DNA of 33,937 nt from Patescibacteria group bacterium. GTDB lineage: Bacteria > Patescibacteriota > Patescibacteriia > Magasanikbacterales > GWA2-37-8. Position 1 is the first letter of the stretch; the number at the start of each line of letters is the position of its first letter. Positions 692-33,937 of the stretch are shown one piece after another. The stretch is taken from the NCBI GenBank assembly GCA_022710645.1, contig JAKLGL010000001.1, positions 529,010-562,946 on the forward strand, given 5' to 3'. The notes under the pieces were generated by a model, which saw only the letters and a list, made by a program, of their open reading frames with translations, did not search any database and was not told where the DNA came from. Position numbers and translations under genes: made by a program.

Positions 692-1459
692 ATGTCTTAT
701 TTTCACGCAATCATTATCGCTGTTGTTGAAGGAATTACCGAATTTTTACCGATTTCTTCCACCGGCCATATGATTTTGACCGCTGATTTATTGAAATTGG
801 AATATAGTAAATTTCTTTCCACTTTTGAAATCAGTATACAATTGGGCGCTATTTTGGCTGTAATTTATTTGTATTGGAAAAAACTTTTTATAGGTATTGA
901 AATTTGGAAAAAAATCATAGTTGCTTTTCTGCCTTCGGCGATTTTGGGTTTTACTTTTTACCCGATGATTAAAAAAATGTTAGAAGGAAATACCGTGGTT
1001 CTATGGTCTCTTTTTTTAGGCGGTATTGTTTTAATAATTTTTGAACTTTGGTATAAAGAACGAGAAACAGATATTTCCGAAGTGGAAAATATTTCTTACA
1101 AACAATCATTTATTGTTGGTCTTTATCAATGTATTGCTATGATTCCCGGGGTTTCTCGTTCCGCAGCTACTATTATCGGCGGGCTTACTCAGAGGATGAA
1201 ACGAAAAACGATAATTGAATTTTCTTTTCTTTTGGCTATTCCGACTATGGGCGCAGCCACAGGGTATGATTTATTAAAAAACGCTTCGGCTTTTAATATT
1301 GATCAACTTCTACTTCTTTTTACAGGTTTTATAATATCTTTTTTTGTAGCGATTATTAGTATTAAATTTTTGCTAAGTTTAGTCAAAAAATACACATTTA
1401 TTGGGTTTGGGGTTTATCGTATTATCATAGCTATTGTCTTTTGGTTTTTTATAAGTTAA
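692..1459 (+). CDS. uppP: Undecaprenyl-diphosphate phosphatase UppP/BacA
   Basis: Integral membrane phosphatase that recycles undecaprenyl diphosphate to the monophosphate lipid carrier used for peptidoglycan and surface glycans. The protein is 255 residues, a normal length, with several hydrophobic segments throughout. Both family signatures are intact: EGITEFLPISSTGH at residues ~13-26 and PGVSRS at ~152-157, which supply the catalytic Glu, Ser, His and Arg. I chose the ATG at 692 over an upstream in-frame TTG at 677 because the family starts just before the EGITEF helix and because T precedes the ATG, as in almost every gene here. The CBS-domain gene follows 42 bases later and probably shares the transcript. 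Confidence 0.95.
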   Translation: MSYFHAIIIAVVEGITEFLPISSTGHMILTADLLKLEYSKFLSTFEISIQLGAILAVIYLYWKKLFIGIEIWKKIIVAFLPSAILGFTFYPMIKKMLEGNTVVLWSLFLGGIVLIIFELWYKERETDISEVENISYKQSFIVGLYQCIAMIPGVSRSAATIIGGLTQRMKRKTIIEFSFLLAIPTMGAATGYDLLKNASAFNIDQLLLLFTGFIISFFVAIISIKFLLSLVKKYTFIGFGVYRIIIAIVFWFFIS

Positions 1460-1471
1460 AATAAAATTAAC

Positions 1472-1503
1472 AATCTTTTAATCTTCTAATTTTTAAACTT
1501 TAT
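1472..1503 (+). repeat. Four-unit degenerate 8-nt tandem array ending in the start codon
   Basis: AATCTTTT, AATCTTCT, AATTTTTA and AACTTTAT follow one another without gaps. The last two bases of the fourth unit are the AT of the ATG at 1502. Confidence 0.7.
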
Positions 1504-1954
1504 GTTAGTTCGCGATCTCATGGACCCCAAGGTCCTTGCCGTTTATGTCGGTACAACTTATGAACAAGTTTTTAAAACTTTGCAAGAAAATAACGCCGGC
1601 GGAGCTATTGTTTTAGATGAAGATGAAAGGTTAGTTGGTTTTGTTTCTGAAAAAGATTTATTTCGTATTTTGTATCCTTTTTATACTAGTTATTACGATA
1701 ATCCGGAAATGTATACAGATTTTGAAGAAAGGGAAGGAAAACCCGAACAAATAAGAAATAAGAAAGTCGAAGTGTTTATGAAAAAAGAGGTGTATACTAT
1801 CGGACCGAACGAACCGGCGATAAAAGCCGGAGCTTTGATGTTAGCCAGAAGCACTGATAGATTAACGGTTATGGAAAACGGTAAACCTATTGGCACTCTT
1901 TATCGTAAAAACATCTTCAAGACGTTGTTGGAAAAAAGTTTGGGATTAAAATAA
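1502..1954 (+). CDS. CBS-domain pair protein
   Basis: A 150-residue soluble protein made of two CBS motifs. The first spans about residues 1-60 (RDLMDPKVLAV, then GGAIVLDEDERLVGFVSEKDL). The second spans about 88-150 (VEVFMKKEVYTIGPNEPA, then RLTVMENGKPIGTLYRKNI). Such pairs form Bateman modules that bind adenine nucleotides (AMP, ATP or SAM) and sense energy state; no catalytic domain is attached, so it probably acts on a partner. It follows uppP closely and is closed by a strong terminator. The ligand and target cannot be read from the sequence. Confidence 0.88.
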   Translation: MLVRDLMDPKVLAVYVGTTYEQVFKTLQENNAGGAIVLDEDERLVGFVSEKDLFRILYPFYTSYYDNPEMYTDFEEREGKPEQIRNKKVEVFMKKEVYTIGPNEPAIKAGALMLARSTDRLTVMENGKPIGTLYRKNIFKTLLEKSLGLK

Positions 1955-1965
1955 AAGTTATGATT

Positions 1966-2009
1966 ATAACCCTCGTCAAAATTGACGAGGGTTATTTGTT
2001 TTATTTTTT
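1966..2009 (+). terminator. Rho-independent terminator after the CBS gene
   Basis: A perfect 14-bp inverted repeat (1966-1979 with 1982-1995, core ACCCTCGTC) is followed by a T-rich tract up to 2009. The T tract leads directly into the proS -35 box. Confidence 0.9.
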
Positions 2010-2036
2010 GACAAAAATAGGTTAATTTAGTATAAT
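2008..2036 (+). promoter_or_regulatory. Consensus sigma70 promoter for proS
   Basis: TTGACA (2008-2013), exactly 17 bp, TATAAT (2031-2036): a full consensus match. It begins inside the T tract of the preceding terminator and leaves a leader of only ~20 nt before the ATG. Confidence 0.9.
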
Positions 2037-2061
2037 TTTATCAAATATCTAAATATTTTTT

Positions 2062-3309: not shown

Positions 3310-3310
3310 C

Positions 3311-3346
3311 AATCTTTGTAATTTCTGTAATTTTTGTAATGTCTAT
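3311..3346 (+). repeat. Four-unit degenerate 9-nt tandem array running into the thiI start
   Basis: AATCTTTGT, AATTTCTGT, AATTTTTGT and AATGTCTAT are contiguous. The two possible thiI start codons (3339 and 3345) lie in the fourth unit. Confidence 0.75.
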
Positions 3347-4469
3347 GTTATTTTACGTTCGAGTCGATGAAATTTTTCTCAAAGGTAAAAATCAAAAAAT
3401 GTTTTTTGACGTTTTACGAGAAAATCTGAAAAAGACATTATCCCCGACATTTATCAAGCGGACCGAAGGCGGTCTGCTTTTAGATATATCGGAAAAAAAG
3501 AAAGAATTGCTTGGCTTGATTCCCGGAGTCGCCAAATATTCTTCTGTATCTGTATGTAAAAATGTTTTGACGGAGATGATTAAAGCCGGATATAAAATAT
3601 TAAAGGATTTCAAAGGGAAAACTTTTGCCATAGATACAAATCGTTCTTATAAAAAATTTCCTTTGAAATCACAGGAGATCAATAAAGAAGTGGGAGCTGA
3701 ATTGGCAAAAAAATTCTCTTTGAAAGTGGATTTAAACAATCCGGAAATTAAAATTTCTATTTTTATCACCAAGGACGAAACTTATGTTTGTGGAGATGAT
3801 GTTGAAGGTGTTGGCGGTTTGCCTGTGGGAACTTCCGGCAAAGTAATGTGTTTATTATCCGGAGGGATAGATAGTCCGGTAGCCGCTTATTTGATGATGA
3901 AACGAGGAGCTCAAATACAATTGATTCATTTTCAAAATCAAACCCAAGTAACACAAGAAGTTTCGGAAAAGATTTTTGATTTGGCAAAAGTTCTCAGTCA
4001 ATATCAATCAAAGATAAAATTACACATTGTGCCTTTTGCCGGTTGGCAAAAACAAGTGGTGATGAAAATTCCGGCGGATATTAGAATGCTTATAACCAGA
4101 AGATTAATGTTCAAGATAGCTCAAAATATAGCCAGAAAAGAAAAATGTCTGGCGTTATGTACGGGTGATAGTGTGGGTCAAGTTGCTTCGCAAACCTTGG
4201 AAAATATGGAGGTTGTCTATATGGCTGCCGAAATGCTAAAACTCAACCCTTTATCCGGAGCCAATAAAATAGAAATTACTCAATTGGCGCGTAAAATAGG
4301 AACTCTGGATATTTCCAATCGTCCCTATGAGGATTGTTGCAGTTTATTTGTAGACAAACACCCGCAAACCAAAGCCAAAATAAGCCACATAGAAGAAGTG
4401 GAAAAGAGGTTGGACTTATCCACACTTGACAAAACTGAAGTTATATCATACAATATTAGTATGAGTTAA
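3345..4469 (+). CDS. thiI: tRNA 4-thiouridine synthetase ThiI, no rhodanese domain
   Basis: Adenylates U8 of tRNA and inserts sulfur to make s4U. An N-terminal ferredoxin-like/THUMP region (to ~residue 165) is followed by the PP-loop ATPase with the SGGIDS motif (~172-177) and a conserved NRPYEDCC segment (~326-332). It ends without the C-terminal rhodanese domain of the E. coli enzyme, so sulfur must come from a persulfide donor such as the cysteine desulfurase encoded ~1.3 kb downstream. The ATG at 3339 would add two residues. I prefer 3345 because T precedes it, as at almost every other start here, and because 3339 lies in a repeat unit. The gene end contains a promoter for the next gene. 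Confidence 0.92.
   Translation: MLFYVRVDEIFLKGKNQKMFFDVLRENLKKTLSPTFIKRTEGGLLLDISEKKKELLGLIPGVAKYSSVSVCKNVLTEMIKAGYKILKDFKGKTFAIDTNRSYKKFPLKSQEINKEVGAELAKKFSLKVDLNNPEIKISIFITKDETYVCGDDVEGVGGLPVGTSGKVMCLLSGGIDSPVAAYLMMKRGAQIQLIHFQNQTQVTQEVSEKIFDLAKVLSQYQSKIKLHIVPFAGWQKQVVMKIPADIRMLITRRLMFKIAQNIARKEKCLALCTGDSVGQVASQTLENMEVVYMAAEMLKLNPLSGANKIEITQLARKIGTLDISNRPYEDCCSLFVDKHPQTKAKISHIEEVEKRLDLSTLDKTEVISYNISMS
4426..4454 (+). promoter_or_regulatory. Predicted sigma70 promoter inside the thiI 3' end
   Basis: TTGACA (4426-4431), 17 bp, TACAAT (4449-4454), within the last codons of thiI and 38 bases before the glutaredoxin ATG. Confidence 0.75.
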
Positions 4470-4492
4470 TTAATTTTTTATATTATATTTGT

Positions 4493-4720
4493 ATGATAAA
4501 TATATATTCCACTCCGTCATGTCCTTATTGTCACATGGTCAAGGATTATCTCAAAAGTAAAAATATTTCTTTTACCGACTATAATGTGGCGGAAGATCAT
4601 GATAAAGCCCAAGAAATGATTGAAAAATCCGGTCAAATGGGGGTTCCGGTAGTTGAAATTGACAATAATATAATCGTAGGTTTTGACAAACCGGAGATAG
4701 ATAGGTTGTTAAATTTATAA
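4493..4720 (+). CDS. Glutaredoxin-like thiol-disulfide oxidoreductase
   Basis: A 75-residue single thioredoxin-fold domain. It has the redox-active CPYC motif (C10 and C13) after the first beta strand (INIYSTPS), the cis-proline loop VPVVEI at ~51-56 and a C-terminal GFDKPEIDRLL helix. This is the size and motif order of glutaredoxin/NrdH-type proteins, which reduce disulfides of partner enzymes. Its own promoter inside thiI suggests expression independent of proS-thiI. The AT-rich palindrome 19 bases downstream could act as its terminator. I cannot tell from sequence whether glutathione or thioredoxin reductase reduces it. Confidence 0.9.
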   Translation: MINIYSTPSCPYCHMVKDYLKSKNISFTDYNVAEDHDKAQEMIEKSGQMGVPVVEIDNNIIVGFDKPEIDRLLNL

Positions 4721-4723
4721 ATA

Positions 4724-4774: not shown

Positions 4775-4784
4775 TAAATTATAT

Positions 4785-5372
4785 ATGCTAAATGAAATAG
4801 TTTTTGACATAGAAACGCAAAATACTTTTGCCGAAGTGGAAAATGATTTTAAGAAATTAAAAGTTTCCGTTGTTTCTATCTATAGTTATGCCACGGATAC
4901 TTATCAAAGTTTTTCCGAAGACGAACTGTCAAAACTTTGGCCGATTTTGGAAAAAGCGGATAGACTCATCGGTTATAATAGTGAACATTTTGATTTACCC
5001 GTCCTAAATAATTATTATTTGGGGAATTTATTGGAACTTCCGAGTTTGGATTTATTAAAAAAAATTAAAGAAAGTTTAGGTATTAGATTGAAATTATCGG
5101 ATGTGGCCGAAGCGACTCTCGACAATATAACCAAGAGTGCGGACGGTCTGCAAGCTATCAAATGGTGGAAAGAGGGTAAAATAGACGAAATAAAAAAATA
5201 TTGTGAGCAAGACGTGAGAGTTACCAAAGAATTGTATGATTTTGGCAGAACTAACAATCAATTGTTTTATAAAAATTTAGTTGGAGAAGTTTTACCGTTT
5301 GCGGTAGATTTTTCTTTTCCGAACGATCAGAAAGAAATTAAAAAATCAGTTAATTTTACATTACCGTTTTAA
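4785..5372 (+). CDS. RNase H-like DEDDy 3'-5' exonuclease family protein (YprB-type)
   Basis: A 195-residue protein with the DEDD exonuclease fold: FDIET at residues 7-11 (D8, E10), EHFDLPVL at 67-74 (D70), and YCEQD at 139-143 (Y139, D143), which makes it DEDDy type. It matches the stand-alone RNase_H_2/YprB-like family. The substrate is not evident; 3'-5' trimming of DNA or RNA is the family expectation. It is the first gene after the palindromic promoter and stands only 2 bases before the Rrf2 regulator, so it is probably cotranscribed with the Fe-S genes, although no direct link to Fe-S assembly is known to me. Confidence 0.82.
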   Translation: MLNEIVFDIETQNTFAEVENDFKKLKVSVVSIYSYATDTYQSFSEDELSKLWPILEKADRLIGYNSEHFDLPVLNNYYLGNLLELPSLDLLKKIKESLGIRLKLSDVAEATLDNITKSADGLQAIKWWKEGKIDEIKKYCEQDVRVTKELYDFGRTNNQLFYKNLVGEVLPFAVDFSFPNDQKEIKKSVNFTLPF

Positions 5373-5374
5373 TT

Positions 5375-5764
5375 ATGTTTAGTTTAAAAAAAGAAACCGA
5401 TTACGCTTTACAATTGTTAAAAAGTATTCCGAAAGATAAGAAATTTTGCGTTAGTTTGAAAGATGTCGCCAAAGAGACTGGTGTTTCTTTTTTATTTTTA
5501 CAAAAGATTGCGCGAAAATTGCGTTTAGCCGGTTTGTTGAAAGCCGTGCAAGGGGTGAATGGCGGATATTCTTTATCCCGACCGGCCAATCAGATATCTT
5601 TGAAAGATATTATTGTGGCAATTGAAGGCGGATGTGCCGTATTGCCTTGTTATTGCGAAAAAAATAAATGTGCTTCCGCTAAATGTGTTTTGAAAAGCAA
5701 AATGAAGAAGATTAATGAAGATATTTTGAAAATTTTATCTAAAACGAAATTAAGCCAGTTTTAA
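5375..5764 (+). CDS. Rrf2/IscR-family transcriptional regulator with five-cysteine cluster loop
   Basis: A 129-residue winged-helix regulator. The Rrf2 N-terminus is clear (KKETDYALQLL, then VSLKDVAKETGVS with the recognition helix LQKIARKLRLAGLL, wing GVNGGYSL). Residues 87-104 hold C87, C92, C94, C99 and C104, at the place where IscR ligates its [2Fe-2S] cluster (three Cys and one His there). The exact ligands here differ and are unproven. It is encoded directly before the cysteine desulfurase with 1 base between them, the classic iscR position, so it is likely an Fe-S or redox sensor that regulates this operon. The palindrome at 4739-4774 is the obvious candidate site. Confidence 0.9.
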   Translation: MFSLKKETDYALQLLKSIPKDKKFCVSLKDVAKETGVSFLFLQKIARKLRLAGLLKAVQGVNGGYSLSRPANQISLKDIIVAIEGGCAVLPCYCEKNKCASAKCVLKSKMKKINEDILKILSKTKLSQF

Positions 5765-5765
5765 T

Positions 5766-6998
5766 ATGTTGCCTAAACCAAAAAAAATTCATCAAGTATA
5801 TTTTGATCATGCAGCTACTACATATACCGACAAGGCTGTAGTGAAAGCCATGATGCCGTATTTTACGGATATTTTTGGCAATCCTTCTTCGCTTTATAAA
5901 ATCGGACGTGAAGCTCAAACAATTCTCAGTAATGTTCGTAAAACCGTAGCTGAACTTATTCACGCAATGCCGGAAAATATCGTTTTTACCGCCGGCGGTA
6001 GTGAGTCAGATAATTTAGCTATTTTTGGTACGGCTTATGCGCATTCACAAATCGGAAAGCATATTATTTCCATAGGCATTGAACATCACGCCGTGCTTTA
6101 TCCTTTGCGTGAATTGGAAAAGCAAGGTTTTGAAGTTACTTATCTCAAAGTTGATAAAGAAGGTTTTGTTTCTGTCAAAGATGTGATTTCCGCTATTCGT
6201 CCGGATACGATTTTGATTACTATCATGTACGCAAATAATGAAATCGGCACTCTTGAACCGATTGCGGAAATCGGGCGTGAACTTTTGCGATATCGTAAAG
6301 AAAAAAATACCGCTTATCCTTATTTCCATACTGATGCGTGCCAAGCCGCCGGTTATCTGGATTTAGACGTAGAAAAATTACACGTTGATTTGATGACAAT
6401 AAATGGTAGTAAAATTTACGGACCCAAAGGAACGGGAATGCTATATGTCCGTCGCGGTATAAAAATAAAACCAATGATTTTTGGCGGAGCGCAGGAAAAG
6501 AAATTGCGAGCCGGTACGGAAAATGTTCCCGGTATTGTTGGTTTTGTTAAAGCCTTAGAATTGGCGCAAAAAAATAAAGATAAAGAGTTTTTGAAAATTC
6601 AGAAATTATCCACTTATTTGTGGAATGAAGTCAATAAAAAAATCAAAAAAGTTCGTTTAAACGGTCCTGTAATAGGCGATAAACGTTTGCCGAATAATGT
6701 GAATATTACTTTTGAAGATGTGGAAGGTGAAGCATTACTTTTGTATTTGGATGAATATGGTGTTATGTGTTCCACCGGTTCGGCTTGCACTTCGGAATCT
6801 TTGGAACCATCACATGTTTTGCGTGCCATTGGTTTACCTTACGAATTTGCTCACGGTAGTTTGCGATTTTCTTTGGGAAAAGAAAATACCAAAGAAGATA
6901 TTGATTATATGATGAAATATTTACCGCAAATTGTTGAAACTTTGCGAGAAATCAGTCCGGTGAATATGGGTAAAGAAAAACATCCTAAGTATAAATAA
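5766..6998 (+). CDS. iscS: Cysteine desulfurase (IscS/NifS family)
   Basis: PLP enzyme that removes sulfur from cysteine to form an enzyme persulfide for Fe-S cluster assembly and thio-tRNA synthesis. The N-terminal DHAATT motif is at ~14-19, the PLP lysine is K216 in GSKIYGPKG, and the sulfur-carrying cysteine is C341 in STGSACTSE. The usual His before the PLP lysine (SAHK) is Ser here. Length (410 aa) and the mobile Cys-loop fit the IscS/NifS group (class I). Between the Rrf2 regulator and the IscU scaffold, it is likely the sulfur source for both IscU and ThiI. A second Cys (C335) lies six residues before C341. Confidence 0.95.
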   Translation: MLPKPKKIHQVYFDHAATTYTDKAVVKAMMPYFTDIFGNPSSLYKIGREAQTILSNVRKTVAELIHAMPENIVFTAGGSESDNLAIFGTAYAHSQIGKHIISIGIEHHAVLYPLRELEKQGFEVTYLKVDKEGFVSVKDVISAIRPDTILITIMYANNEIGTLEPIAEIGRELLRYRKEKNTAYPYFHTDACQAAGYLDLDVEKLHVDLMTINGSKIYGPKGTGMLYVRRGIKIKPMIFGGAQEKKLRAGTENVPGIVGFVKALELAQKNKDKEFLKIQKLSTYLWNEVNKKIKKVRLNGPVIGDKRLPNNVNITFEDVEGEALLLYLDEYGVMCSTGSACTSESLEPSHVLRAIGLPYEFAHGSLRFSLGKENTKEDIDYMMKYLPQIVETLREISPVNMGKEKHPKYK

Positions 6999-7084: not shown

Positions 7085-7089
7085 CCAGT

Positions 7090-7770
7090 ATGTTTAAGAA
7101 AAAAACCAAAAAATCCACCGTAGTTAAAAAGACCTATGACGTCCGTAGTAAAGATGGTAGTTCGGGTTGGCTTTATACCGATAAAGTTAAAGATCATTTT
7201 TTCTCTCCGCGCAATTTTATGCATTTTGGCGAAGAAAAAAAATTTAAATTCAACGGTTACGGCCGTGTCGGTTCTCCAGCTTGCGGAGATGAGATGGTTT
7301 TGTGGTTGCAAATAGATCCAAAAACGGAAAAAATCAAAGATTGTCGTTGGCGAACTTTCGGTTGCGGTAGTGCTATTGCTTCTACCTCGGCGATGAGTGA
7401 AATGATAAAAAGAAAAGGCGGGATGAAAGTTGATGGTGCACTAAAAATAAAACCTCAAGATATTCTCAAAGAACTTGGCGGTTTGCCTGACCGAAAAGTT
7501 CACTGTTCTGTTTTGGGTGATAAAGCGTTACAGGCAGCAATAAACGATTATTTTCGTAAAACCAAACAACATGATAGAATAGTTGTTGAAGGTGCTAAAA
7601 TTGTTGACCCTAAATTAAAAATTACAGATAAGGATATAGAAGAAGCTGTTCTTGATGGTGCGCGTACGTTGGAAGATATCCAAAATAAACTCAAAGTCGG
7701 TGTTAGTAGCCCAGAGGTTATTCCGGCAATTGAAGAATTGATTAGATTCTATACGGAAAAGTATTTCTAA
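7090..7770 (+). CDS. iscU: IscU-type Fe-S scaffold fused to a cysteine-less BFD-like domain
   Basis: Scaffold on which [2Fe-2S] clusters form. With the start at 7090 the IscU domain covers about residues 30-160 and has the three ligand cysteines C65 (PACGD), C92 (GCGSAIAST) and C139 (HCSVLGDKA). A tail (~170-226) reads ITDKDIEEAV, GARTLEDIQ, then VGVSSPEV. This aligns by eye with the BFD-like [2Fe-2S] domain that follows IscU in NifU, but its four cysteines are gone. The ATG at 7051 would add 13 residues encoded by intergenic repeat sequence and is preceded by A, so I prefer 7090. It lies downstream of iscS, probably in the same operon. Confidence 0.9.
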   Translation: MFKKKTKKSTVVKKTYDVRSKDGSSGWLYTDKVKDHFFSPRNFMHFGEEKKFKFNGYGRVGSPACGDEMVLWLQIDPKTEKIKDCRWRTFGCGSAIASTSAMSEMIKRKGGMKVDGALKIKPQDILKELGGLPDRKVHCSVLGDKALQAAINDYFRKTKQHDRIVVEGAKIVDPKLKITDKDIEEAVLDGARTLEDIQNKLKVGVSSPEVIPAIEELIRFYTEKYF

Positions 7771-7848: not shown

Positions 7849-7887
7849 TGATAAAATTTTAATTAATTTAATAATTTAACTAATCTT

Positions 7888-8070
7888 ATGATTCCAAAAG
7901 TAGACAGTGAAAAGTGTATTGGTTGTGGCGCTTGCGTTGCAATCGCTGGAAATACTTTCAAATTAAACGCTGAAGGTAAATCCGAAGTTGTTAATCCAAC
8001 AGGCGATACTCCGGAAGTTATTCAACAAGCAGTTGAAGGTTGTCCGGTTGGAGCAATAACGCTGGAATAA
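7888..8070 (+). CDS. Single-cluster [4Fe-4S] ferredoxin
   Basis: A 60-residue ferredoxin with C10, C13 and C16 in CIGCGAC and C52 in a GCPVGA motif, which supplies one [4Fe-4S] cluster. The second Cys set of bacterial 8Fe ferredoxins is absent. It probably supplies electrons for Fe-S cluster assembly or for Fe-S enzymes such as QueH. It follows iscU after a 117-base spacer that holds a 9-nt array and a REP-like element, and it is closed by its own terminator. The spacer before its ATG (7861-7889) is again a short-period AT repeat. Confidence 0.93.
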   Translation: MIPKVDSEKCIGCGACVAIAGNTFKLNAEGKSEVVNPTGDTPEVIQQAVEGCPVGAITLE

Positions 8071-8262: not shown

Positions 8263-8288
8263 AAAGCCAAATATAGACGGTATAAAGT

Positions 8289-8960
8289 ATGAATGGAAAG
8301 TTATTTATTATCGCTACGCCTATAGGAAATTTAGGTGATGTTACCTTGCGCGCTTTGGAAACTTTCAAAAGCGTTGATTTGATATTGTGTGAAGACACTA
8401 GAGTAACCAAAAACATGCTAGATCATTATAAAATCAATAAACAATTGATTAGTTTTCATCAACATAGCGAAATTGCCAAATTTAAAGAAATTGAAAGTTT
8501 ACTTTTATCCGGTAAAAATATCGGTTTAGTTACTGATGCCGGTACACCGGGAATTTCTGATCCAGGTGGTCTACTCATTGAATATTTGATTAAAAAGGGT
8601 TTAGGGGACAATGTAGTGGCTATTCCGGGAGTTTCTGCCGTAGTGATGGCGTTGTCAATTTCCGGTTTTCCGACTGATAGGTTTATGTTTATGGGTTTTC
8701 CTCCGCACAAAAATAAAAGACAAAAATATTTCAAAGAAGTAGCAGAAAAAGAAGAGACAGTTGTTTTTTACGAATCCGGTCATCGTATTTTGAAATGTTT
8801 AAATGAATTAAAAGAATTACTTGATCCAAAAAGACAGCTCGTTGTGTGTCGAGAATTGACCAAAAAATTTGAAACGATTTATCGTGGAACTATTGATGAA
8901 ATTATAGAGAAAATGAAAGATGAAAGAGGGGAGTTTGTAATCATAATAAATAGAAAATAA
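8289..8960 (+). CDS. rsmI: 16S rRNA (cytidine1402-2'-O)-methyltransferase RsmI
   Basis: SAM-dependent methyltransferase of the tetrapyrrole-methylase fold that modifies C1402 in the ribosomal P site. Family motifs are clear: ATPIGNLGDVTLRAL near residues 9-23, LCEDTRVTKNML, TDAGTPGISDPG and FYESGHRI. At 223 residues it lacks the ~50-residue C-terminal extension of longer RsmI proteins. It is followed 11 bases later by metG, so the two translation genes are likely one transcript. Confidence 0.95.
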   Translation: MNGKLFIIATPIGNLGDVTLRALETFKSVDLILCEDTRVTKNMLDHYKINKQLISFHQHSEIAKFKEIESLLLSGKNIGLVTDAGTPGISDPGGLLIEYLIKKGLGDNVVAIPGVSAVVMALSISGFPTDRFMFMGFPPHKNKRQKYFKEVAEKEETVVFYESGHRILKCLNELKELLDPKRQLVVCRELTKKFETIYRGTIDEIIEKMKDERGEFVIIINRK

Positions 8961-8971
8961 ATTTTATACTT

Positions 8972-10529: not shown

Positions 10530-10559
10530 CGTAACTTTATAAACTTTTAACTTACGCCT
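10530..10559 (+). repeat. Short AACTTTAT-type repeat before cvpA
   Basis: AACTTTATA, AACTTTT and AACTTACG follow each other at 8-9 nt spacing and end three bases before the cvpA ATG. The unit resembles those at 1472-1503 and 32403-32505. Confidence 0.55.
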
Positions 10560-11174: not shown

Positions 11175-11181
11175 TTTGATT

Positions 11182-13041: not shown

Positions 13042-13043
13042 AT

Positions 13044-15164: not shown

Positions 15165-15167
15165 AAT

Positions 15168-26373: not shown

Positions 26374-26394
26374 TTTTCTTTATATTTTAAATCA

Positions 26395-27507
26395 ATGTCA
26401 AATAAAGAATTTAATTATAAGTTCTACACCACCGCCTCTGAAGCCTGGGATGCTATGTACCAGGCGATTTTAGATTCTCAAAAATCAGTTTATTGGGAAA
26501 TTTATGCTTTGGGTAATGATGAAATAGGAGATAAATTTATCAATTTGTTGATTAAAAAAGCGGGAGAAGGTTTGGATATAAAAATTATCGTCGACCATTT
26601 GGGCAGTTTTTCTTTATCAACCACGCAACAAGATAATTTGCGCAATGCCGGAGTGGATTTGATTGTTTATAATGAAGTTTTTAAATTTCAATTTAATTTG
26701 TATAAATGGTTCAAAAGAATTTGGCAAAGGAATCATCGTAAAGTTTTGATAATTGACGAAGAAACCGGTTTTATCGGCGGTGTTAACGTGACGGTTCAAG
26801 AAAAAGAGTGGGGAGATCTGTATTTGAAAATAGAGGGGAAAACAGTCAGACCGTTACTGCGTCAATTTGCTCACAGTTATATAAAATCCGGAGGTAAGAA
26901 AAAAAATGTCAAAGCTTTGTTTCACCCGATATTACTCAAAGAATTTCCTTCTTTGAAAAAGAAAATAGGATTTATTTTTCATGAGCCGATATTTAATCGG
27001 AACAATTCAAAATTGAAAAATTTTTATTATGATTTGATACGTTCGGCAAGACAATCAATCACTTTATTGACGCCATATTACATCCCTGATAAAAAATTTC
27101 TACAACTTATTTCGGAAGCCAAAAAAAGAGGAGTGGAAATAAATATTATTCTACCTTATCGTCCGGATCATAAATTTATCCAAATTGCGTCCCAGGCTTT
27201 TTATGAATTGTCGCGTAAAGCCGGGGCAAAAATTTTTCTTTTGCCCAGAATGCATCATGGTAAAGCCATATCCGTTGACGGTAAGTTTGGTTCTATCGGA
27301 AGTAATAATTTTACTCATCGCAGTTTTTATATCAACAAAGAGGCGGATGTTAATTTTCAAGAAAAAGAAATGGTTGCCGAATTAAACGATATTCTAGAAG
27401 AATTGAAAAAACAAGCCGTGCCGTACGATAGGAAAAAGTTTGTTGATTTTTGGATTATAAAAAAGATTAAACAATGGTGGGCGGAGAAAATAAAAAGAAT
27501 TGTTTGA
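26395..27507 (+). CDS. Phospholipase D-family protein, probable cardiolipin synthase
   Basis: A 370-residue protein with two HKD motifs: H114, K116, D121 (HRKVLIID) and H288, K290, D295 (HGKAISVD), each followed by a GG or GSNNF segment. This is the layout of ClsA/ClsB-type cardiolipin synthases, which join two phosphatidylglycerols. The N-terminal membrane helices of ClsA are absent, as in ClsB; a basic Trp-rich C-terminus (KKIKQWWAEKIKR) may bind membrane. It is the only start here without T at -1 (A instead). Another PLD activity cannot be excluded. Confidence 0.85.
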   Translation: MSNKEFNYKFYTTASEAWDAMYQAILDSQKSVYWEIYALGNDEIGDKFINLLIKKAGEGLDIKIIVDHLGSFSLSTTQQDNLRNAGVDLIVYNEVFKFQFNLYKWFKRIWQRNHRKVLIIDEETGFIGGVNVTVQEKEWGDLYLKIEGKTVRPLLRQFAHSYIKSGGKKKNVKALFHPILLKEFPSLKKKIGFIFHEPIFNRNNSKLKNFYYDLIRSARQSITLLTPYYIPDKKFLQLISEAKKRGVEINIILPYRPDHKFIQIASQAFYELSRKAGAKIFLLPRMHHGKAISVDGKFGSIGSNNFTHRSFYINKEADVNFQEKEMVAELNDILEELKKQAVPYDRKKFVDFWIIKKIKQWWAEKIKRIV

Positions 27508-27534
27508 TTTTTAGATTTATGATTTTTATAAATT

Positions 27535-28776
27535 ATGCCTATTAAACAGGTCAAAACTCAAACCACAGTAAACTCAATTCCTTTGGCTGAGCGCATGCGC
27601 CCACAGGATTTTGACGGTTTTTTTGGTCAAACAGATATTGTAGGGCAAGGGAAAATTTTGCGTAAATTAATAGAAAGTGATGATTTGACATCGCTTATTT
27701 TTTGGGGCCCGCCGGGAGTTGGTAAAACAACTTTGGCCAAAATAATCGCCGCTAAAACCAAATCGCATTTTATCCAACTTTCTGCGGTGATGAGTGGTAA
27801 AGATGAATTGCGTGAAGCTGTAGCGCAAGCCAAAGAAATAAAAGAAAAAGAAAATCGTCGCACCATTTTATTTATTGATGAAATCCATCGTTGGAATAAA
27901 GCTCAACAAGATGCGTTGTTGCCTTATGTGGAGCAAGGGGATATTATTTTGATTGGCGCGACTACGGAAAATCCTTCTTTTGAAATTATCAGAGCTTTGC
28001 TTTCCAGATCGCGAGTCTTTGTTTTGAAATCACTTAGTGAAGAAGAACTATTTCAAGTTGTGAAAAGAGCATTGGTTGATGAAAATGTCGGTTTGGGAAC
28101 AATGAAAATTAAAATAGATGATGAGGTAATAAAAACAATAGTATTTTTTTCCGGAGGTGATGCGCGAACAGCGTTAAATATTTTGGAGTTAGCAGTAAAG
28201 CTTAATAAAGAAGGAAAAATAGATAAAAGTGATATTAAAGAATCTGCACAAAAAGTAAATGTGGTTTTTGATAAACAGGGCGAAGAATTTTATAATTTAA
28301 TTTCCGCGTTACATAAATCTATGCGCGGTAGTGATCCAGATGCCTCTATTTATTGGTTATGTCGTATGTTACAAGGTGGAGCCGATCCGCTCTATGTGGC
28401 GCGTCGGGTAGTTCGTTTTGCTTCCGAAGATATCGGGATGGCTAACGGTGAAGCCCTTATTCAGGCTAATGCGGCTTATGATGCATGTCATCGTCTAGGG
28501 ATGCCCGAGTGCGGAGTACATTTGGCTCAGGCGGTAGTTTATTGCGCTAAATCGGCAAAATCCAATTTATTGTATGTGGCTTATGAAAAAGCAATGAAAG
28601 ATGCGGAACAAACATCTCATTTGGGAGTGCCGTTACACCTCCGTAATGCTCCGACTCAATTTATGAAAGATATTGGTTATAGCGACGGATATAAATATAA
28701 TCCCGATTTTGACGGTCCTGTGGAACAAGAATATTTGCCAGAGGAGTTGAAAGGAAAAAAATACTTAAAAAAATAA
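27535..28776 (+). CDS. rarA: Replication-associated recombination protein RarA/MgsA
   Basis: AAA+ ATPase related to clamp-loader subunits that acts at stalled replication forks. The Walker A motif GPPGVGKTT is at 58-66, Walker B reads LFIDEIHRW (112-120), sensor 1 is GATTENPSFE and the arginine finger segment is LLSRSRVF. The C-terminal half has the family-specific PDASIYWLCRML, RRVVRFASEDIG and tetramerisation region up to the LPEELKGKKYLKK end. Full length (413 aa). It follows cls by 27 bases, and queH starts 6 bases after its stop. Confidence 0.95.
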   Translation: MPIKQVKTQTTVNSIPLAERMRPQDFDGFFGQTDIVGQGKILRKLIESDDLTSLIFWGPPGVGKTTLAKIIAAKTKSHFIQLSAVMSGKDELREAVAQAKEIKEKENRRTILFIDEIHRWNKAQQDALLPYVEQGDIILIGATTENPSFEIIRALLSRSRVFVLKSLSEEELFQVVKRALVDENVGLGTMKIKIDDEVIKTIVFFSGGDARTALNILELAVKLNKEGKIDKSDIKESAQKVNVVFDKQGEEFYNLISALHKSMRGSDPDASIYWLCRMLQGGADPLYVARRVVRFASEDIGMANGEALIQANAAYDACHRLGMPECGVHLAQAVVYCAKSAKSNLLYVAYEKAMKDAEQTSHLGVPLHLRNAPTQFMKDIGYSDGYKYNPDFDGPVEQEYLPEELKGKKYLKK

Positions 28777-28782
28777 TCTCAT

Positions 28783-29373
28783 ATGGATAAATGTCTACTT
28801 CATGTCTGCTGTGCTCCTTGCAGTATTGCCGTAATAGATGAATTAAAAAACGATTATGATTTAACCGTTTATTTTTATAACCCCAATATTTATCCAGAAC
28901 AAGAATATCTCAAGCGTAAAGCCGAAGTTGTCCGAGTTTGTAACGAATGGAAAATACCGATGATTGATGCAGATTATGAAACACAAAATTGGGAAGAGTG
29001 CACAAAAGGCCTGGAAAATGAACCGGAAGGCGGAAAAAGATGTTTGAATTGTTTTGCAATGCGATTAAATAAAGCCGGGGAATATGCCAAGCAAAATAAT
29101 TTTGATATTTTTGCTACAACTCTGACCAGTGGTAGAAATAAAAAAGCGGACGTTATTCATCCGCTCGGGTTTAAAATCGCTGAAAAATTTGGTTTGAAAT
29201 TTTTGGATATTGACTGGAAAACCGAAGGAAGACAGGAAAAAGGAAGAAAGATGGTCAAAGACAGGGGAATTTATAGGCAGGATTATTGTGGATGTCGGTT
29301 TTCAATAGAAAACCGAACTCAAAACTCAAATATCATCCGCCGCGGCGGACAAAACCACAACTTAAAACCTTAA
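28783..29373 (+). CDS. queH: Epoxyqueuosine reductase QueH
   Basis: Reduces epoxyqueuosine to queuosine in tRNA, the last step of Q synthesis. The three cysteine sets of the QueH (formerly DUF208) family are present: HVCCAPC (C9, C10, C13), RCLNC (C87, C90) and YCGC (C169, C171), which bind a [4Fe-4S] cluster and a nearby iron. After the YCGC motif the family normally ends within a few residues. Here ~25 polar residues follow, encoded by a hairpin and a GC-rich palindrome, so the tail looks like read-in repeat sequence. No other Q-pathway gene is in the window. Confidence 0.93.
   Translation: MDKCLLHVCCAPCSIAVIDELKNDYDLTVYFYNPNIYPEQEYLKRKAEVVRVCNEWKIPMIDADYETQNWEECTKGLENEPEGGKRCLNCFAMRLNKAGEYAKQNNFDIFATTLTSGRNKKADVIHPLGFKIAEKFGLKFLDIDWKTEGRQEKGRKMVKDRGIYRQDYCGCRFSIENRTQNSNIIRRGGQNHNLKP
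29296..29349 (+). repeat. Hairpin and GC-rich palindrome within the queH 3' tail
   Basis: CGGTTTTC (29296-29303) pairs perfectly with GAAAACCG (29308-29315). A perfect 14-nt palindrome, TCCGCCGCGGCGGA, lies at 29336-29349 and stands out in an AT-rich region. Confidence 0.65.
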
Positions 29374-29428: not shown

Positions 29429-29854
29429 TTAATATTGTATTTTTCTTCCCGTCGGAGCGTGTTCAATGCGTATTTCCACGCATTTCTTTTTTTTGAGCAA
29501 GTTGGGAATTTTTTCCGCCCATTCTATAACACAGATTGTTTCAGTATTCCCCAAATAGTCATCGATGCCGATATCCAACAGTTCGTCTTCATCTTTGAGA
29601 CGGTAAGCGTCAATATGAACAAATTTTAAACTTTTTCCGTTAAGTTGAATGAAATATACGTTAAAAAGTGTAAAAGTAGGGCTTTTGATTCTCTGTTTAA
29701 TACCAAAAACTTGAGCAACGCCTTTGGTTAATGTGGTTTTCCCGGCCCCCAGATCTCCGTATAAACACAAAATATCTCCACCTTGCAAAGTAGTAGCAAT
29801 TTTTTTTCCGAAATCAACCAATTCTTTCTCGTTTTTAATAAAAATTTCTTGCAT
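29429..29854 (-). CDS. tsaE: tRNA threonylcarbamoyladenosine biosynthesis ATPase TsaE
   Basis: ATPase that drives the TsaB-TsaD complex in making t6A37 of ANN-decoding tRNAs. The 141-residue protein has the P-loop GDLGAGKTT (33-41), the SPTFTL switch segment, HIDAYRL, and the Walker-B-like CVIEWAEKIP stretch. It is the only minus-strand gene here. Its promoter faces the promoter of the next plus-strand gene. The tsaB, tsaC and tsaD partners are not in this window. Confidence 0.95.
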   Translation of the reverse strand: MQEIFIKNEKELVDFGKKIATTLQGGDILCLYGDLGAGKTTLTKGVAQVFGIKQRIKSPTFTLFNVYFIQLNGKSLKFVHIDAYRLKDEDELLDIGIDDYLGNTETICVIEWAEKIPNLLKKKKCVEIRIEHAPTGRKIQY

Positions 29855-29866
29855 ATATTTTCTCTT

Positions 29867-29895: not shown

Positions 29896-29917
29896 CTTGT
29901 GCTTATTGTTGTAAAAT
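29889..29917 (+). promoter_or_regulatory. Predicted sigma70 promoter of the O-antigen ligase-like gene
   Basis: TTGTCA (29889-29894), 17 bp, TAAAAT (29912-29917). Its -35 occupies the same bases as the tsaE -35 on the other strand. Confidence 0.65.
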
Positions 29918-29935
29918 ATACACATTAAAAATCAG

Positions 29936-29959
29936 AGACGGGGAAGCTAAGCCCTGTCT
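29936..29959 (+). promoter_or_regulatory. Leader hairpin before the O-antigen ligase-like gene
   Basis: AGACGGGG (29936-29943) pairs with CCCTGTCT (29952-29959) with one G-T wobble over an 8-nt loop, ~20 bases before the ATG. There is no T tract; the function is unknown. Confidence 0.45.
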
Positions 29960-29978
29960 ATTCTAATCTTCTTAAATT

Positions 29979-32036
29979 ATGTCTAAAGACAAGGTAATTT
30001 TGGCGATAAAGATACTTATCTACGCCAGTTTTTTTGTGCCTCTTTTGGTGTTACCGAGTTCGTTTATTTTCCCTTTTATCGTACCAAAGATTTTGACGTT
30101 TCGTTCCATTGTTTTATTGATGACCGGATTATATGCCTTGTTATTGATAGTTGATTTTGAAGAATACAAACCGAAGTTTACCCCGATAAACATCGCTGTA
30201 TTCTTGTTTTGGCTTAGTTTTTGTATTTCCACGTTTACCGGAGTGGATCCATATCATAGTTTTTGGGACAATCATGAACGTATGTTGGGATTTTTTACTA
30301 TTACGCATTATGTAATATATTTTTATGTTTGTGGAGCTGTTTTGAAAACTTGGTCGGATTGGCGTTTAGCTTTGAAAATATTTTTAATCGCCGGAACAGG
30401 GGTGATGTTTGTGGGTTTTTTGCAAGTTGGCAATCCTCAATTGTTGTTGAATCAAGGTTCTGATCGTGTTGCCAGTACGCTTGGTAACCCGATTTACGTT
30501 GGCGGATATGCTTTGTTTTTGTCAGCTATGGCTGCGTTGCTGTTGGCCAAAGAAAAAACCTTACATTGGCGTTGGATATTGGGTGCGATATTAGCTCTGT
30601 CTTTTTTTGGAATATTTTTTAGTGGTACTCGCGGTGACATGTTGGCTCTGGCTGTAGCTATTCCTTTGATTATTTTTTTGTTAGCCATAGCTTTGCGCGG
30701 TTATCCGAAAGCGAAAATTTATCTTTGGTCGTCTTTGGCTGTTTTTGTTTTGATTTTTTCAATTTTGTATTTTAACCGTCAAACTGATTTTGTAAAAAGC
30801 ATTCCTGCTGTCGGTCGTGCTATTAATACATCTTATTCGACCATTAAAGCCAGCCCCCGTTGGATTGCTTGGCAAATAGCTTTGCAAAGTTGGAAAGACA
30901 AACCTATTTTTGGCTGGGGTCCGAATAATTATTTTTACGCTTTTAATTCTCATTATAATCCCAGATCGTTGGATTTCGGTTATGGAGAAACATGGTTTGA
31001 TAACGCTCACAATATAGTACTCAATACTATGGCGGTTCAAGGAACTTTCGGTATCTTGGTTTATCTATTGTTGTTTGCGATAGCAGTTATGTCTTTGACG
31101 ATTGCTTACAGGAAAAAACATGTGGATTTGACTATTTTTATTGTTCTTTCGGTTTATGTTATTTCTCATTTAGTGGAAAATATTACGGTTTTTGAGAATT
31201 TGACATCATATCTTTATTTTATGTTTGTTTTGGCTATGATTAGCCGTTTGACTTTGTTGCCAGAAAAAGATGAAAAAAATCAAAATGTTCAAGCAAACAA
31301 AAATTTAAGTTTAGGTGTAGTTTCAGTTGTTGGCGTAACGGTTTTTATTCTTATATTTATTTTTAACATTCAACCGGCGAGAGCCAATATGAAATCGCTT
31401 GATGCTATCAAAATGTTGAATTCCAATCCGCCGATGGCTTTGTCGTCCGTGGAAGACGCTATTAATTTCAAATCTCCGCATATTGACGATATCAGAAGCG
31501 ACATCTCTCGATCCGTAGTGCAAATAGCTTATTCTTTGATGCAAAATCAACAAACAAAAATAGATTTTTTGAAAAAGATTTTAGATGTTTGTTATAGTGA
31601 ACTTCATAAAAATACCGATTTACACCCTCTTGATATCCGTAATCAAATGACATTATCGCAAATGGCGCAAGTGATGGCCCAATTGAACAATGATCCTATA
31701 AAAATAGCGGAAGCGGAAAATTATCTCAAAGACGCTTTGGATAAATCGCCAAAACGACAACAACTGGTATATTCGTTGGCGATGTTACAAATGCAAATGG
31801 GAAAAACGAATGAAGCCGCGATATTGTTGGAAAATACCATAAAAGATAATTCTAAAATCGCGGAAAGTTATTGGCGTTTGGCTTATGTGTATAAAATTGT
31901 CGGTGATGATAAAAAAGTTTTGGAGATTTTGCAATTGGCGGAAAAAAACGGTGTAGTATTTACGGAAAATGAAAATAATATTATCGCGCAAATAATGGCG
32001 ATTACACCTGCGACGACAACAGTGAAGAAAAAGTAG
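29979..32036 (+). CDS. O-antigen ligase/polymerase-like membrane protein with C-terminal TPRs
   Basis: A 685-residue protein with about a dozen hydrophobic helices up to ~430. The Wzy_C/WaaL-type core has NPIYVGGYALFL, FSGTRGDMLAL, and a periplasmic-type loop from GWGPNNYFYAFNSHYNP to DNAHNIVLNTMAVQG, with the Arg and His positions typical of the family. The C-terminal ~200 residues are helical TPR-like repeats (DALDKSPKRQQLVYSLAML, EAAILLENTIKDNSKIAESYWRLAYVYKIVGDDKK-type spacing). Family members transfer lipid-linked glycans to lipid A or to proteins. In a cell without LPS, glycosylation of pilin or surface protein is more likely. GDP-fucose genes follow. Confidence 0.82.
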   Translation: MSKDKVILAIKILIYASFFVPLLVLPSSFIFPFIVPKILTFRSIVLLMTGLYALLLIVDFEEYKPKFTPINIAVFLFWLSFCISTFTGVDPYHSFWDNHERMLGFFTITHYVIYFYVCGAVLKTWSDWRLALKIFLIAGTGVMFVGFLQVGNPQLLLNQGSDRVASTLGNPIYVGGYALFLSAMAALLLAKEKTLHWRWILGAILALSFFGIFFSGTRGDMLALAVAIPLIIFLLAIALRGYPKAKIYLWSSLAVFVLIFSILYFNRQTDFVKSIPAVGRAINTSYSTIKASPRWIAWQIALQSWKDKPIFGWGPNNYFYAFNSHYNPRSLDFGYGETWFDNAHNIVLNTMAVQGTFGILVYLLLFAIAVMSLTIAYRKKHVDLTIFIVLSVYVISHLVENITVFENLTSYLYFMFVLAMISRLTLLPEKDEKNQNVQANKNLSLGVVSVVGVTVFILIFIFNIQPARANMKSLDAIKMLNSNPPMALSSVEDAINFKSPHIDDIRSDISRSVVQIAYSLMQNQQTKIDFLKKILDVCYSELHKNTDLHPLDIRNQMTLSQMAQVMAQLNNDPIKIAEAENYLKDALDKSPKRQQLVYSLAMLQMQMGKTNEAAILLENTIKDNSKIAESYWRLAYVYKIVGDDKKVLEILQLAEKNGVVFTENENNIIAQIMAITPATTTVKKK

Positions 32037-32037
32037 A

Positions 32038-32064
32038 AAGTTTATAAAGTTCATAAAGTCCCAG
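32038..32064 (+). repeat. Three-unit 9-nt array upstream of the four-helix-bundle gene
   Basis: AAAGTTTAT, AAAGTTCAT and AAAGTCCCA. Read on the other strand these give GAACTTTAT and similar units, so they are inverted relative to the array at 32403-32505. Confidence 0.7.
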
Positions 32065-32068
32065 ACAT

Positions 32069-32413
32069 ATGAAAATAGACAAGTTCGAAGATATAATTGC
32101 TTGGCAAAAGAGTGAACTTCTGGTTTTGGATATCTATAAACATTTTAAGAATTGTAGAGATTTTAGTTTTAGAGATCAAATTCAAAGAGCCGCAGTATCT
32201 ATTATGAATAATATTGCCGAAGGATTTGAGCGAAGAACCAACAAAGAGTTAAGTAATTTTTTATTTATTGCTAAAGGTTCTTGTGCTGAAGTTCGTTCAA
32301 TGTTATATCTTGCTCTTAAACTTGGTTATGTTTCTAAAAATAAATTTGAGGAATGGTATTCTCTAACAACAGAAATTTCCAGAATGCTTTCAGGCTTTAT
32401 CAAAACTTTATAA
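32069..32413 (+). CDS. Four-helix-bundle protein of the S23/IVS family
   Basis: A 114-residue all-helical protein. The family pattern is complete: an early Trp-containing FEDIIAWQKSELLVLDIY helix, then RDQIQRAAVSIMNNIAEGFER, FLFIAKGSCAEVRSMLYLA, and a final amphipathic helix. Homologues form pentamers, some lie in 23S rRNA intervening sequences, and the group includes the Avd subunit of diversity-generating retroelements. No reverse transcriptase, template repeat or rRNA is nearby, so the role here is unknown. The gene is bracketed by oppositely oriented 9-nt arrays, and its TAA stop lies in the first unit of the downstream array. Confidence 0.9.
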   Translation: MKIDKFEDIIAWQKSELLVLDIYKHFKNCRDFSFRDQIQRAAVSIMNNIAEGFERRTNKELSNFLFIAKGSCAEVRSMLYLALKLGYVSKNKFEEWYSLTTEISRMLSGFIKTL

Positions 32414-32505
32414 ACTCTATAACTGTACAAACCTTATGAATTTTACGAACTCTATCACCACCACTTTTTCGAACTTTACGAACTTTATAACTTTACAAAC
32501 TTTAT
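32403..32505 (+). repeat. Ten-unit degenerate RAACTTTAY array running into the gmd start codon
   Basis: Units of 8-9 nt: AAACTTTAT, AAACTCTAT, AACTGTAC, AAACCTTAT, GAATTTTAC, GAACTCTAT, a 15-nt interruption (32456-32470), then GAACTTTAC, GAACTTTAT, AACTTTAC and AAACTTTAT. The array covers the whole spacer. It begins inside the end of the four-helix-bundle gene and its last unit supplies the AT of the gmd ATG (32504). Confidence 0.85.
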
Positions 32506-33541
32506 GAACTCAAAGCGTGCTTTTATCACGGGAATTACCGGTCAAGATGGTTCTTATCTCGCAGAATTACTACTAGCCAAAGGTTATGAAGTCCATGGAT
32601 TGATTCGTCGTTCCAGCACTTTTAATACCGGGAGAATAGATCATCTCTACAAAGATCCTCATGTAAATGATGTTAAATTATTTTTACATTTTGGAGATTT
32701 GACAGATGGAAGTAATATTTCTCGTTTGTTGGAGCAAATAAAACCGGACGAAATATACAATCTCGGAGCGCAAAGTCACGTTAAAGTGAGTTTTGATATG
32801 CCGGTATATACCGGAAATACGGACGGTCTCGGAACGCTACGATTACTCGATGCTATCAAAGAAACGGGAATAAAAACAAAATTTTATCAAGCTGGTTCGT
32901 CTGAAATGTTTGGAAAAGTTCAAGAAACTCCGCAAAAAGAAACCACACCTTTTTATCCGCGTAGCCCCTATGCTTGTACCAAGGCTTATGCGCATTGGCT
33001 TTGTGTCAACTATCGTGAAGCTTACAATATGTTTATTTGTAACGGGATTTTGTTTAATCATGAATCACCGCGACGCGGCGGGACTTTTGTCACCAAAAAA
33101 ATTACTGATGCGTTGCATAATATCAAGGAAGGTAGACAAGAAAAACTTTATCTTGGTAATTTGGAAGCCAGACGTGACTGGGGTTATTCCAAAGATTATG
33201 TGGAAGCGATGTGGTTAATGCTCCAGCAAGAAAAACCCGATGATTACGTGATAGCTACCGGAGAAACACATACAGTAAAAGAGTTTACGGAAGAAGCTGG
33301 AAAATATTTCGGTTTTGATATTATTTGGCAAGGAAGCGGAATAAATGAAAAAGGTATAGATAAAAATACCGGTAAAATAATAATAGAAATAGATGAGCGC
33401 TATTTTCGTCCGGCGGAAGTGGATTTATTATTGGGAGATTATTCCAAAGCAAAGAAAAATTTCAATTGGGAACCGAAAACCAAGTTTAAAGAATTAGTGA
33501 AAATAATGTGTGAAGCCGAAGAATATGGAGAAAAACTCTAA
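32504..33541 (+). CDS. gmd: GDP-mannose 4,6-dehydratase
   Basis: Converts GDP-D-mannose to GDP-4-keto-6-deoxymannose with bound NADP+. The 345-residue SDR-fold protein has the nucleotide-binding [10 protein letters not shown] (10-19), the [13 protein letters not shown] loop, catalytic residues in GSSEMFG (~131-137) and the YACTK motif (Y156, K160), then [16 protein letters not shown]. Full length. fcl overlaps its 3' end by 17 bases, so the pair makes GDP-L-fucose. It likely feeds the glycan handled by the O-antigen ligase-like protein. Confidence 0.97.
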
Positions 33542-33937
33542 GATTTATATAGCGGGACATACCGGCTTGGTTGGTTCGGCATTGATTCGAAATCTGCAGT
33601 CTCAAGGGTATAATAATTTGATCTATAAAACTTTTGAGGAGTTAGATTTAACCGATCAACAAGCAACAATGAAATTTTTTGAAAAAGAAAAACCAGAATA
33701 TATAATTTTGGCAGCCGCGAAAGTCGGGGGTATCGGAGCCAATAACACTTATCCGGCAGAATTTATTTATCAGAATTTACAGATTCAAAACAATGTTATC
33801 CATCAAGCTTATTTGTGCGGAGTAAAAAAATTGTTGTTTTTGGGATCGGTTTGTATTTATCCGAAATTTGCTCCCGAACCGGTAAAAGAAGAATATTTGT
33901 TAACCGGAACATTAGAACCGACCAATGAGCCTTATGC
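33525..33937 (+). CDS. fcl: GDP-L-fucose synthase, 5' part (runs off the window)
   Basis: Epimerase-reductase that turns GDP-4-keto-6-deoxymannose into GDP-L-fucose. The visible 137 residues start [20 protein letters not shown] with the Rossmann GxxGxxG. They go on with [19 protein letters not shown] and the active-site segment GSVCIYP, where the family usually has GSSCIYP (the first Ser and the Cys are kept, the second Ser is Val). The end LEPTNEPYA is just before the YxxxK motif, which lies outside the window. The start overlaps the end of gmd by 17 bases. Confidence 0.93.

Follow-up and report, generated by a model that had tools for sequence, protein, structure and literature searches.

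UAUG as the predicted start signal in a class of Patescibacteria related to Candidatus Magasanikbacteria

The start codons of the DNA stretch described here are almost always directly preceded by T. This stretch (the window; 33,937 nt, C1:529010–562946) belongs to a metagenome-assembled genome (MAG) of 929,478 bp in 24 contigs from a Patescibacteria bacterium related to Candidatus Magasanikbacteria. A preliminary description had reported T at position −1 (T(−1), or U(−1) in mRNA) for 35 of 36 ATG starts in the window. We confirm that the observation is real and far wider than the window. The comparison with internal ATGs that the preliminary description had proposed gives T(−1) at 82.9% of 733 starts genome-wide versus 28.0% of 4023 internal ATGs, with an intergenic background of 31% of 2960 ATGs. 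The rule is also present in all 23 relatives sampled from the same bacterial class (hereafter, the class), at 67%–100%. These comparisons strongly support the prediction that UAUG is the start signal in the class.

T(−1) across the genome and the class

We analyzed 867 kb of the MAG, comprising C1, C12 and 20 kb of C18; the remaining small contigs, two of them reading N, were unused. The sample is this one MAG, with other genomes represented by stretches of ≤20 kb, and all starts are computed. Genes were called with a hexamer-based caller, and the start was taken as the leftmost in-frame ATG, picked blind to the base at −1. Such an ATG was available in 733 of 734 called genes.

T(−1) reaches 90.1% of 504 genes with a single ATG candidate, in which A(−1) drops to ∼4%. 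Among single-candidate genes close to the coding onset, T(−1) stands at 95.2% of 147 and 94.4% of 178 in the two best-scoring bands, 88.5% of 96 in the next and 70.3% of 37 in the lowest. Genes that begin 0–15 nt behind a co-directional stop carry T(−1) in 94.8% of 192 cases. By position, T(−1) is least frequent in calls that run into the upstream gene (58.7% of 46) and behind gaps >150 nt (73.9% of 119), where the leftmost ATG most often makes the gene too long. The signal is confined to a single position, with an information content of 1.04 bits at −1 and ≤0.06 bits at every other position from −20 to −2, including 0.03 bits at −3. Of the 30 leftmost ATGs in the ribosomal-protein region of this genome, 27 follow a T. 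The genes concerned include those that, from their N-termini, we take to encode uS12, uS7, EF-G, EF-Tu, uL2, uS19, uS3, uL14, uL6 and uL15.

The junctions between neighboring genes are avoided or favored in the same sense, and this avoidance is independent of choosing starts by T. Starts at a gap of −1 (TAATG, TGATG) or 0 cannot carry U(−1). The genome has three junctions at gap −1 or 0 versus 29 at gap +1, and 25 of these 29 consist of a TAA stop, then T, then ATG. In the ribosomal-protein stretches of 24 class genomes, just one of the 102 junctions in the range from −4 to +6 has a gap of −1 or 0. The corresponding count is 42 of 88 in ten Patescibacteria genomes of SD type, a group defined after inspecting the fractions of genes with Shine-Dalgarno (SD) motifs (p = 3e-16). 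At 4-nt ATGA overlaps in our genome, T(−1) is found in 16 of 18 cases. The last upstream codon at these overlaps is ATA in nine, TTA in four, CTA in three and AAA in two, and hence NUA in 16 of 18, such that the U(−1) rule dictates the C-terminal residue of the upstream gene (Leu or Ile).

Judged by the L2 protein, most of the nearest titled loci are Candidatus Magasanikbacteria; Komeilibacteria and Falkowbacteria are more distant. Across 47 Magasanikbacteria-like loci, most of them titled as such and eight with no more than Patescibacteria, Parcubacteria or bacterium in their titles, we find T(−1) at 91.4% of 663 starts and 25.8% of 2600 internal ATGs. It amounts to 91.3% of 23 starts in two Falkowbacteria loci and 80% of 15 in one Komeilibacteria locus; three other loci titled Parcubacteria reach 91.4% of 35, and one more (L258) has 3 of 5. 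The preliminary description had also called for a comparison with related genomes of the candidate phyla radiation (CPR). Among 24 class genomes, our own included, T(−1) spans 0.67–1.00 over a GC content of 0.34–0.58, the lowest value being that of G119 (n = 9). The 37 other genomes of the phylum range from 0.14 to 0.91, with G104 the highest. Two SD-poor genomes are without the rule, namely G105 (SD 0.04, T 0.30) and G176 (SD 0.07, T 0.14); losing SD motifs is therefore not enough to produce it.

An artifact of AT-richness, or of start choice guided by context, might be suspected in a genome of ∼63% AT for which starts had been picked by eye. However, the context-blind calls agree with the earlier ones, and the same pipeline returned T(−1) at only 21% of 124 starts in nine Firmicutes loci (SD in 108) and 18% of 99 in thirteen loci grouped as Chloroflexota (SD in 80). 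Both groups follow record titles, and one of the thirteen, L277, is titled only “Bacterium HR28”. In an Escherichia coli control, T(−1) occurs in 17 of 44 annotated genes (44 of 50 coding sequences, with very short, duplicate and cut ones excluded). Internal and intergenic ATGs of our genome stay at ∼30% T, and three class members at a GC content of 0.55–0.58 keep T(−1) at 0.67–0.88 versus 5%–13% internally. AT-richness and biased start choice are thus ruled out as the general cause, and we regard an artifact of either kind as scarcely credible. Leaderless mRNAs would account for the pattern differently: T(−1)A(+1) would be a preferred transcription start, with the T belonging to the promoter instead of the ribosome. 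Genes with gaps >60 nt or divergent neighbors do show a weak −10-like excess near −14 (17 at −14, with adjacent positions mostly 3–10), but a dominant −10 peak was not found, and T(−1) is strongest close behind upstream stops and in ATGA overlaps, sites that as a rule are unable to start transcripts. These operon-internal starts rule out leaderless promoters as the general cause, which we consider very unlikely. The weak excess near −14 leaves room for a leaderless minority, which may exist.

SD motifs in a minority of genes

The preliminary description had also reported the lack of SD motifs. This stands for the window, where no SD core 4-mer begins at −13 to −8 before any leftmost ATG, but it fails genome-wide. 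An SD core 4-mer lies at −20 to −4 in 88 of 734 genes, against 56.9 ± 5.2 in shuffled sequences, with a peak at −12 to −8; most genes of this genome are without an SD motif at canonical distance. The 47 Magasanikbacteria-like loci have SD in 42 of 663 genes versus 94 of 663 control stretches, and in some class stretches (e.g., G008, G026, G034, G074) SD is slightly above its own control.

SD and U(−1) are mutually exclusive, and SD is the minority system. Among single-ATG genes, an SD core precedes 10 of 419 with T(−1) versus 12 of 39 without it (p = 9e-9). For leftmost-ATG genes, the core occurs at canonical distance in 21 of 605 and 34 of 115, respectively. Internal ATGs, used as a control, have SD-like cores in 76 of 1133 cases with T(−1) and 174 of 2903 without. 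The anti-SD CACCTCC (CACCUCC in the rRNA), whose inspection had been suggested earlier, is kept in all 27 class 16S genes that reach that far. Our own 16S gene, at L033:1–1141 on the minus strand, is truncated where its contig ends, ahead of this motif. The SD cores of non-T(−1) genes and the retained CACCUCC together make it probable that a minority of genes can still be initiated through SD. The earlier proposal that UAUG context selects starts “rather than” the anti-SD is therefore well supported as regards the context and too strong in excluding the anti-SD.

Many of the SD genes combine strong AAGGAGG-like motifs with a low coding score per codon, and some look lipoprotein-like by eye. 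Several of the 50 SD genes that we listed are weak SD matches that also offer a TATG alternative. A Pfam scan of ten of the 50 left four unmatched at E ≤ 0.01, and the others matched HD, RCC1-repeat, ankyrin or response-regulator families. Strong-SD genes, mostly without a nearby U(−1) start, are scattered along C1 (e.g., 12299–12776, 20942–22333, 157404–164592, 288871–291877 and 413756–415140) and C12 (e.g., 50828–52619 and 81974–85016). Their composition suggests that the strong-SD genes were acquired and use another start rule.

How U(−1) might be read

Taken as a whole, the explanation that we favor, and hold to be somewhat more probable than its negation, is that UAUG marks starts and that its first base is recognized together with the start codon, with A37 of the initiator tRNA as the most likely pairing partner and on a 30S subunit with a changed E-site path. 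It builds on U(−1) being nearly fixed in native genes and present within operons, on the scarcity of junctions that forbid it, and on its mutual exclusion with SD. The 30S subunit would bind most mRNAs, with their A/U-rich leaders, without SD pairing. A U directly before AUG would then be needed for, or would strongly favor, locking the initiator tRNA on the correct AUG. This U would most likely be recognized by extended pairing with A37, on a subunit whose mRNA path through the E site would be altered by 16S G693A, U1506C and an A921-U1396 pair near G926. SD would still serve a minority of foreign-looking genes, through the anti-SD retained in relatives. The U(−1):A37 pairing is the simplest reading and a possible one, predicted from sequence. 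A bolder version, to which we give slightly less than even credence, is that UAUG acts as a four-base start codon in the whole class, on a ribosome re-tuned by the same 16S changes and often by tRNA C33, with SD surviving only for recently acquired genes, which would give two start rules per cell.

The 16S changes emerge from a comparison of 31 class genomes with 16S loci (a set other than the 24 above) and 17 genomes outside the class, with G001 in neither group. Position 693 is A in 29 of 29 class genomes versus 1 of 17 outside, and position 1506 is C in 27 of 27 versus 4 of 12. The 921–1396 pair is A-U in the class (30 of 30 at 921, 26 of 26 at 1396) and has these bases in 5 of 16 and 4 of 15, respectively, outside. 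In addition to A693, the 690 loop is rewritten at 690, 695 and 697 in most of the class. A pattern search located A693 outside the class also in G112, G053 and G175. In published structures, the mRNA −1 base stacks on G926, which has G1505 on its other face, and the −3 base stacks on G693 (PMC12607687, PMC11903750). The conservation of G693 is given as 93.5% (PMC12607687). Several class 16S genes also have extra bases between 1114 and 1174, where the alignment to E. coli breaks. The G001 bin is peculiar in that the 16S on its contig C34 lacks all three class changes (G693, U1506), yet its ribosomal-protein region follows the rule; our guess is that this 16S represents bin contamination. Ribosomal protein bS21, which together with bS18 and bS6 forms the pocket that sequesters the anti-SD in Bacteroidetes, gave matches at E ≤ 1e-3 in 10 of 24 class genomes (two more fell over the cut-off) and none in our own (G000), versus 35 of 37 outside. 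Judged by these matches, bS21 is highly divergent or missing in most class members sampled, and it may well be divergent rather than absent.

The initiator tRNA of our genome (L047:10465–10538) has C33 replacing U33, an A29-U41 pair, and A37. A search that left position 37 open found A37 also in the initiator tRNAs of G001, G089, G104 and G162; the other tRNA searches across genomes fixed A37 in the pattern and hence are uninformative on this position. C33 occurs in 15 of the 22 class genomes read versus 1 of 22 outside, with two class and 15 outside genomes unread. We found no shift of the +4 base matching C33 or U33. C33 was rejected as the cause of the rule, being enriched in the class but dispensable in seven members with U33 that keep it.

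Reading by rRNA is a serious alternative to pairing with A37, because A37 is stacked in P-site structures, the −1 base lies on G926, and the changed 16S bases surround the site. On this account, an E-site pocket of rRNA and protein, formed by G926, the G1505-U1506 region, G693 and uS7/uS11, would tolerate only the small, flexible U. We judge it fairly unlikely, although several observations speak for it. The class-changed bases (693, 1506, 921–1396) follow the mRNA path from −1 to −3 or are close to it, and the action of kasugamycin at this site in E. coli is modified by the −1 base (PMC8794815). Outside the class, mean T(−1) is 0.69 in genomes with C1506 (n = 6) versus 0.41 in those with U1506 (n = 24; p = 0.003). 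However, five of the six outside C1506 genomes fall in one clade with the class in a 21-protein tree (FastTree, midpoint-rooted), and the grouping therefore amounts to one or two events. There are also exceptions, since G162 has C1506 with T(−1) at 0.48 and G041 has U1506 with 0.69. We accordingly rejected C1506 as an independent correlate of T(−1), strong as the association looked across genomes. A further possibility is that U(−1) acts indirectly and has no reading partner; it would be favored for leaving the start free of structure, for avoiding alternative frames or for unstacking the kink in the mRNA. The leaders of our genome are indeed A/U-rich and G-poor, and weak structure around starts is general in non-SD genes (PMC5397173). 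Against this, a single position holds 1.04 bits and its neighbors almost none, A(−1) would serve equally well and yet is rare in single-candidate genes, and the rule holds at 55%–58% GC. We consider an indirect effect of this kind improbable.

Several points weigh against UAUG as a start signal read by A37 on a re-tuned ribosome. In P-site structures, A37 is stacked on the codon-anticodon helix and not paired with mRNA (PMC4611024). Neither G693A nor C33 is necessary or sufficient: G104 has G693 and U33 with T(−1) at 0.91, G112 has A693 with T(−1) at 0.56, and the seven class members with U33 that follow the rule include G001, whose divergent match was read as initiator. In the tree, most occurrences of C1506 and of the trait go back to one clade, and the link between the two is therefore not independent evidence. 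Within the class, T(−1) declines with GC content (Spearman −0.44, p = 0.03). In our ribosomal-protein region, uS10 and adk (adenylate kinase) carry C(−1); the third non-T gene there, uL5 with G(−1), is, we think, called too long. Non-ATG starts (GTG/TTG) in the class are without a clear T(−1), at 9 of 18, although these cases are few. TATG in the middle of genes stands at 1.10 of expectation in our genome, and a class-specific avoidance of in-frame TATG inside genes was looked for and not found; something besides UAUG must therefore exclude internal sites. TATG is depleted in leaders (37 observed versus 77.7 expected, 0.48), but leader CATG is depleted as well (9 versus 22.9 expected, 0.39) and AATG partly so (82 versus 117). 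Part of this depletion is built in, as taking the leftmost start in itself eliminates a number of upstream ATGs.

The rule bears on how bacteria lacking SD choose their starts, in that one base here holds almost all of the upstream information. Esposito et al. in 2003 reportedly showed, on single reporters, an extended codon-anticodon interaction between U(−1) and A37 of the initiator tRNA. The class has the same base at the same place, with the same proposed help in start recognition, and differs in that the interaction would be its main rule. With U(−1) near fixation in every sampled member, the class offers a clean natural test of that old proposal, and the comparison singles out specific 16S positions for testing. 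For class genomes, the rule is also a practical guide to start calling and can flag foreign genes. It shapes stop/start junctions and even the codons at the C-terminal end. If the proposed model is true, native and foreign genes would be translated under different start rules in one cell.

Other known systems resemble the class in part. Flavobacterium johnsoniae (Bacteroidetes) has a Kozak-like start context with A at −3 as determinant (PMC6847099). The likeness extends to SD-poor mRNAs, a retained anti-SD, a single-nucleotide context near AUG and a scarcity of AUG near starts. In contrast, U(−1) is the nearly fixed base in the class, and −3 holds a mere 0.03 bits in our genome, so that A(−3) is not the main determinant there. 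Tetranucleotide start codons described in vitro (Manderschied 1978 and Schmitt 1980, cited in PMC9841429) likewise extend initiator-tRNA recognition by a fourth base, but theirs is A at +4, pairing with U33, whereas many class members have C33. Leaderless initiation (PMC3160421) also needs no SD, although the class rule is strongest inside operons. SD-led initiation shares with the class the anti-SD of relatives and the SD of a minority of genes; most class genes, however, are without SD and carry U(−1) instead. We found no report of a U(−1) or UAUG rule in the parts consulted of the open-access literature on Patescibacteria, the CPR, or Parcubacteria and Shine-Dalgarno. The phylum table of a nucleotide-bias survey of 260 prokaryotes is without Patescibacteria (PMC5397173).

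Start codons of the window

Thirty-six genes were called in the window. Their leftmost ATG has T(−1) in 32 (p = 7e-13 against the intergenic frequency of 31%) and A(−1) in four, at 3339 (thiI), 7051 (iscU), 23848 and 26395 (cls); gene names are those of the preliminary description. A TATG follows shortly downstream for three of the four, at 3345, 7090 and 23920, so that 35 of 36, as claimed earlier, is a fair reading. The description had named cls as the exception, and so it remains: its leftmost start is an AAUG (26394–26397), and the next UAUG comes only at 26454–26457, with its ATG at 26455. The candidate UAUG of thiI (3344–3347) stands two codons past the AAUG at 3339, and that of iscU occupies 7089–7092. 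The third candidate (23919–23922) lies where start and upstream stop share 4 nt (ATGA). These sites, and all others below unless stated, are on the plus strand.

Seven UAUG starts are operon-internal. The upstream stop lies 2 nt before those at 5374–5377, 13043–13046, 16412–16415 and 18038–18041, 3 nt before 15167–15170, 5 nt before 22306–22309 and 9 nt before 18434–18437. TAA-T-ATG junctions, with the upstream stop 1 nt before the start, occur at 5765–5768 and 19938–19941. The UAUG is that of the only ATG candidate at 691–694, the first start that we list, and at 2061–2064 and 4784–4787. It coincides with the leftmost ATG at 1501–1504, 4492–4495, 7887–7890, 8288–8291, 8971–8974, 10559–10562, 11181–11184, 16146–16149, 17243–17246, 17526–17529, 20927–20930, 23143–23146, 27534–27537, 28782–28785, 29978–29981, 32068–32071 and 32503–32506. 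The sole minus-strand gene called in the window has its UAUG start at 29852–29855. Two called starts were excluded from this account, one at 52, where the gene is cut by the window edge and the start is unreliable, and one at 22846, which belongs to a short, uncertain open reading frame. The latter (22846–23019) overlaps a second short open reading frame in a different frame (22871–23104), the two together covering 22846–23104.

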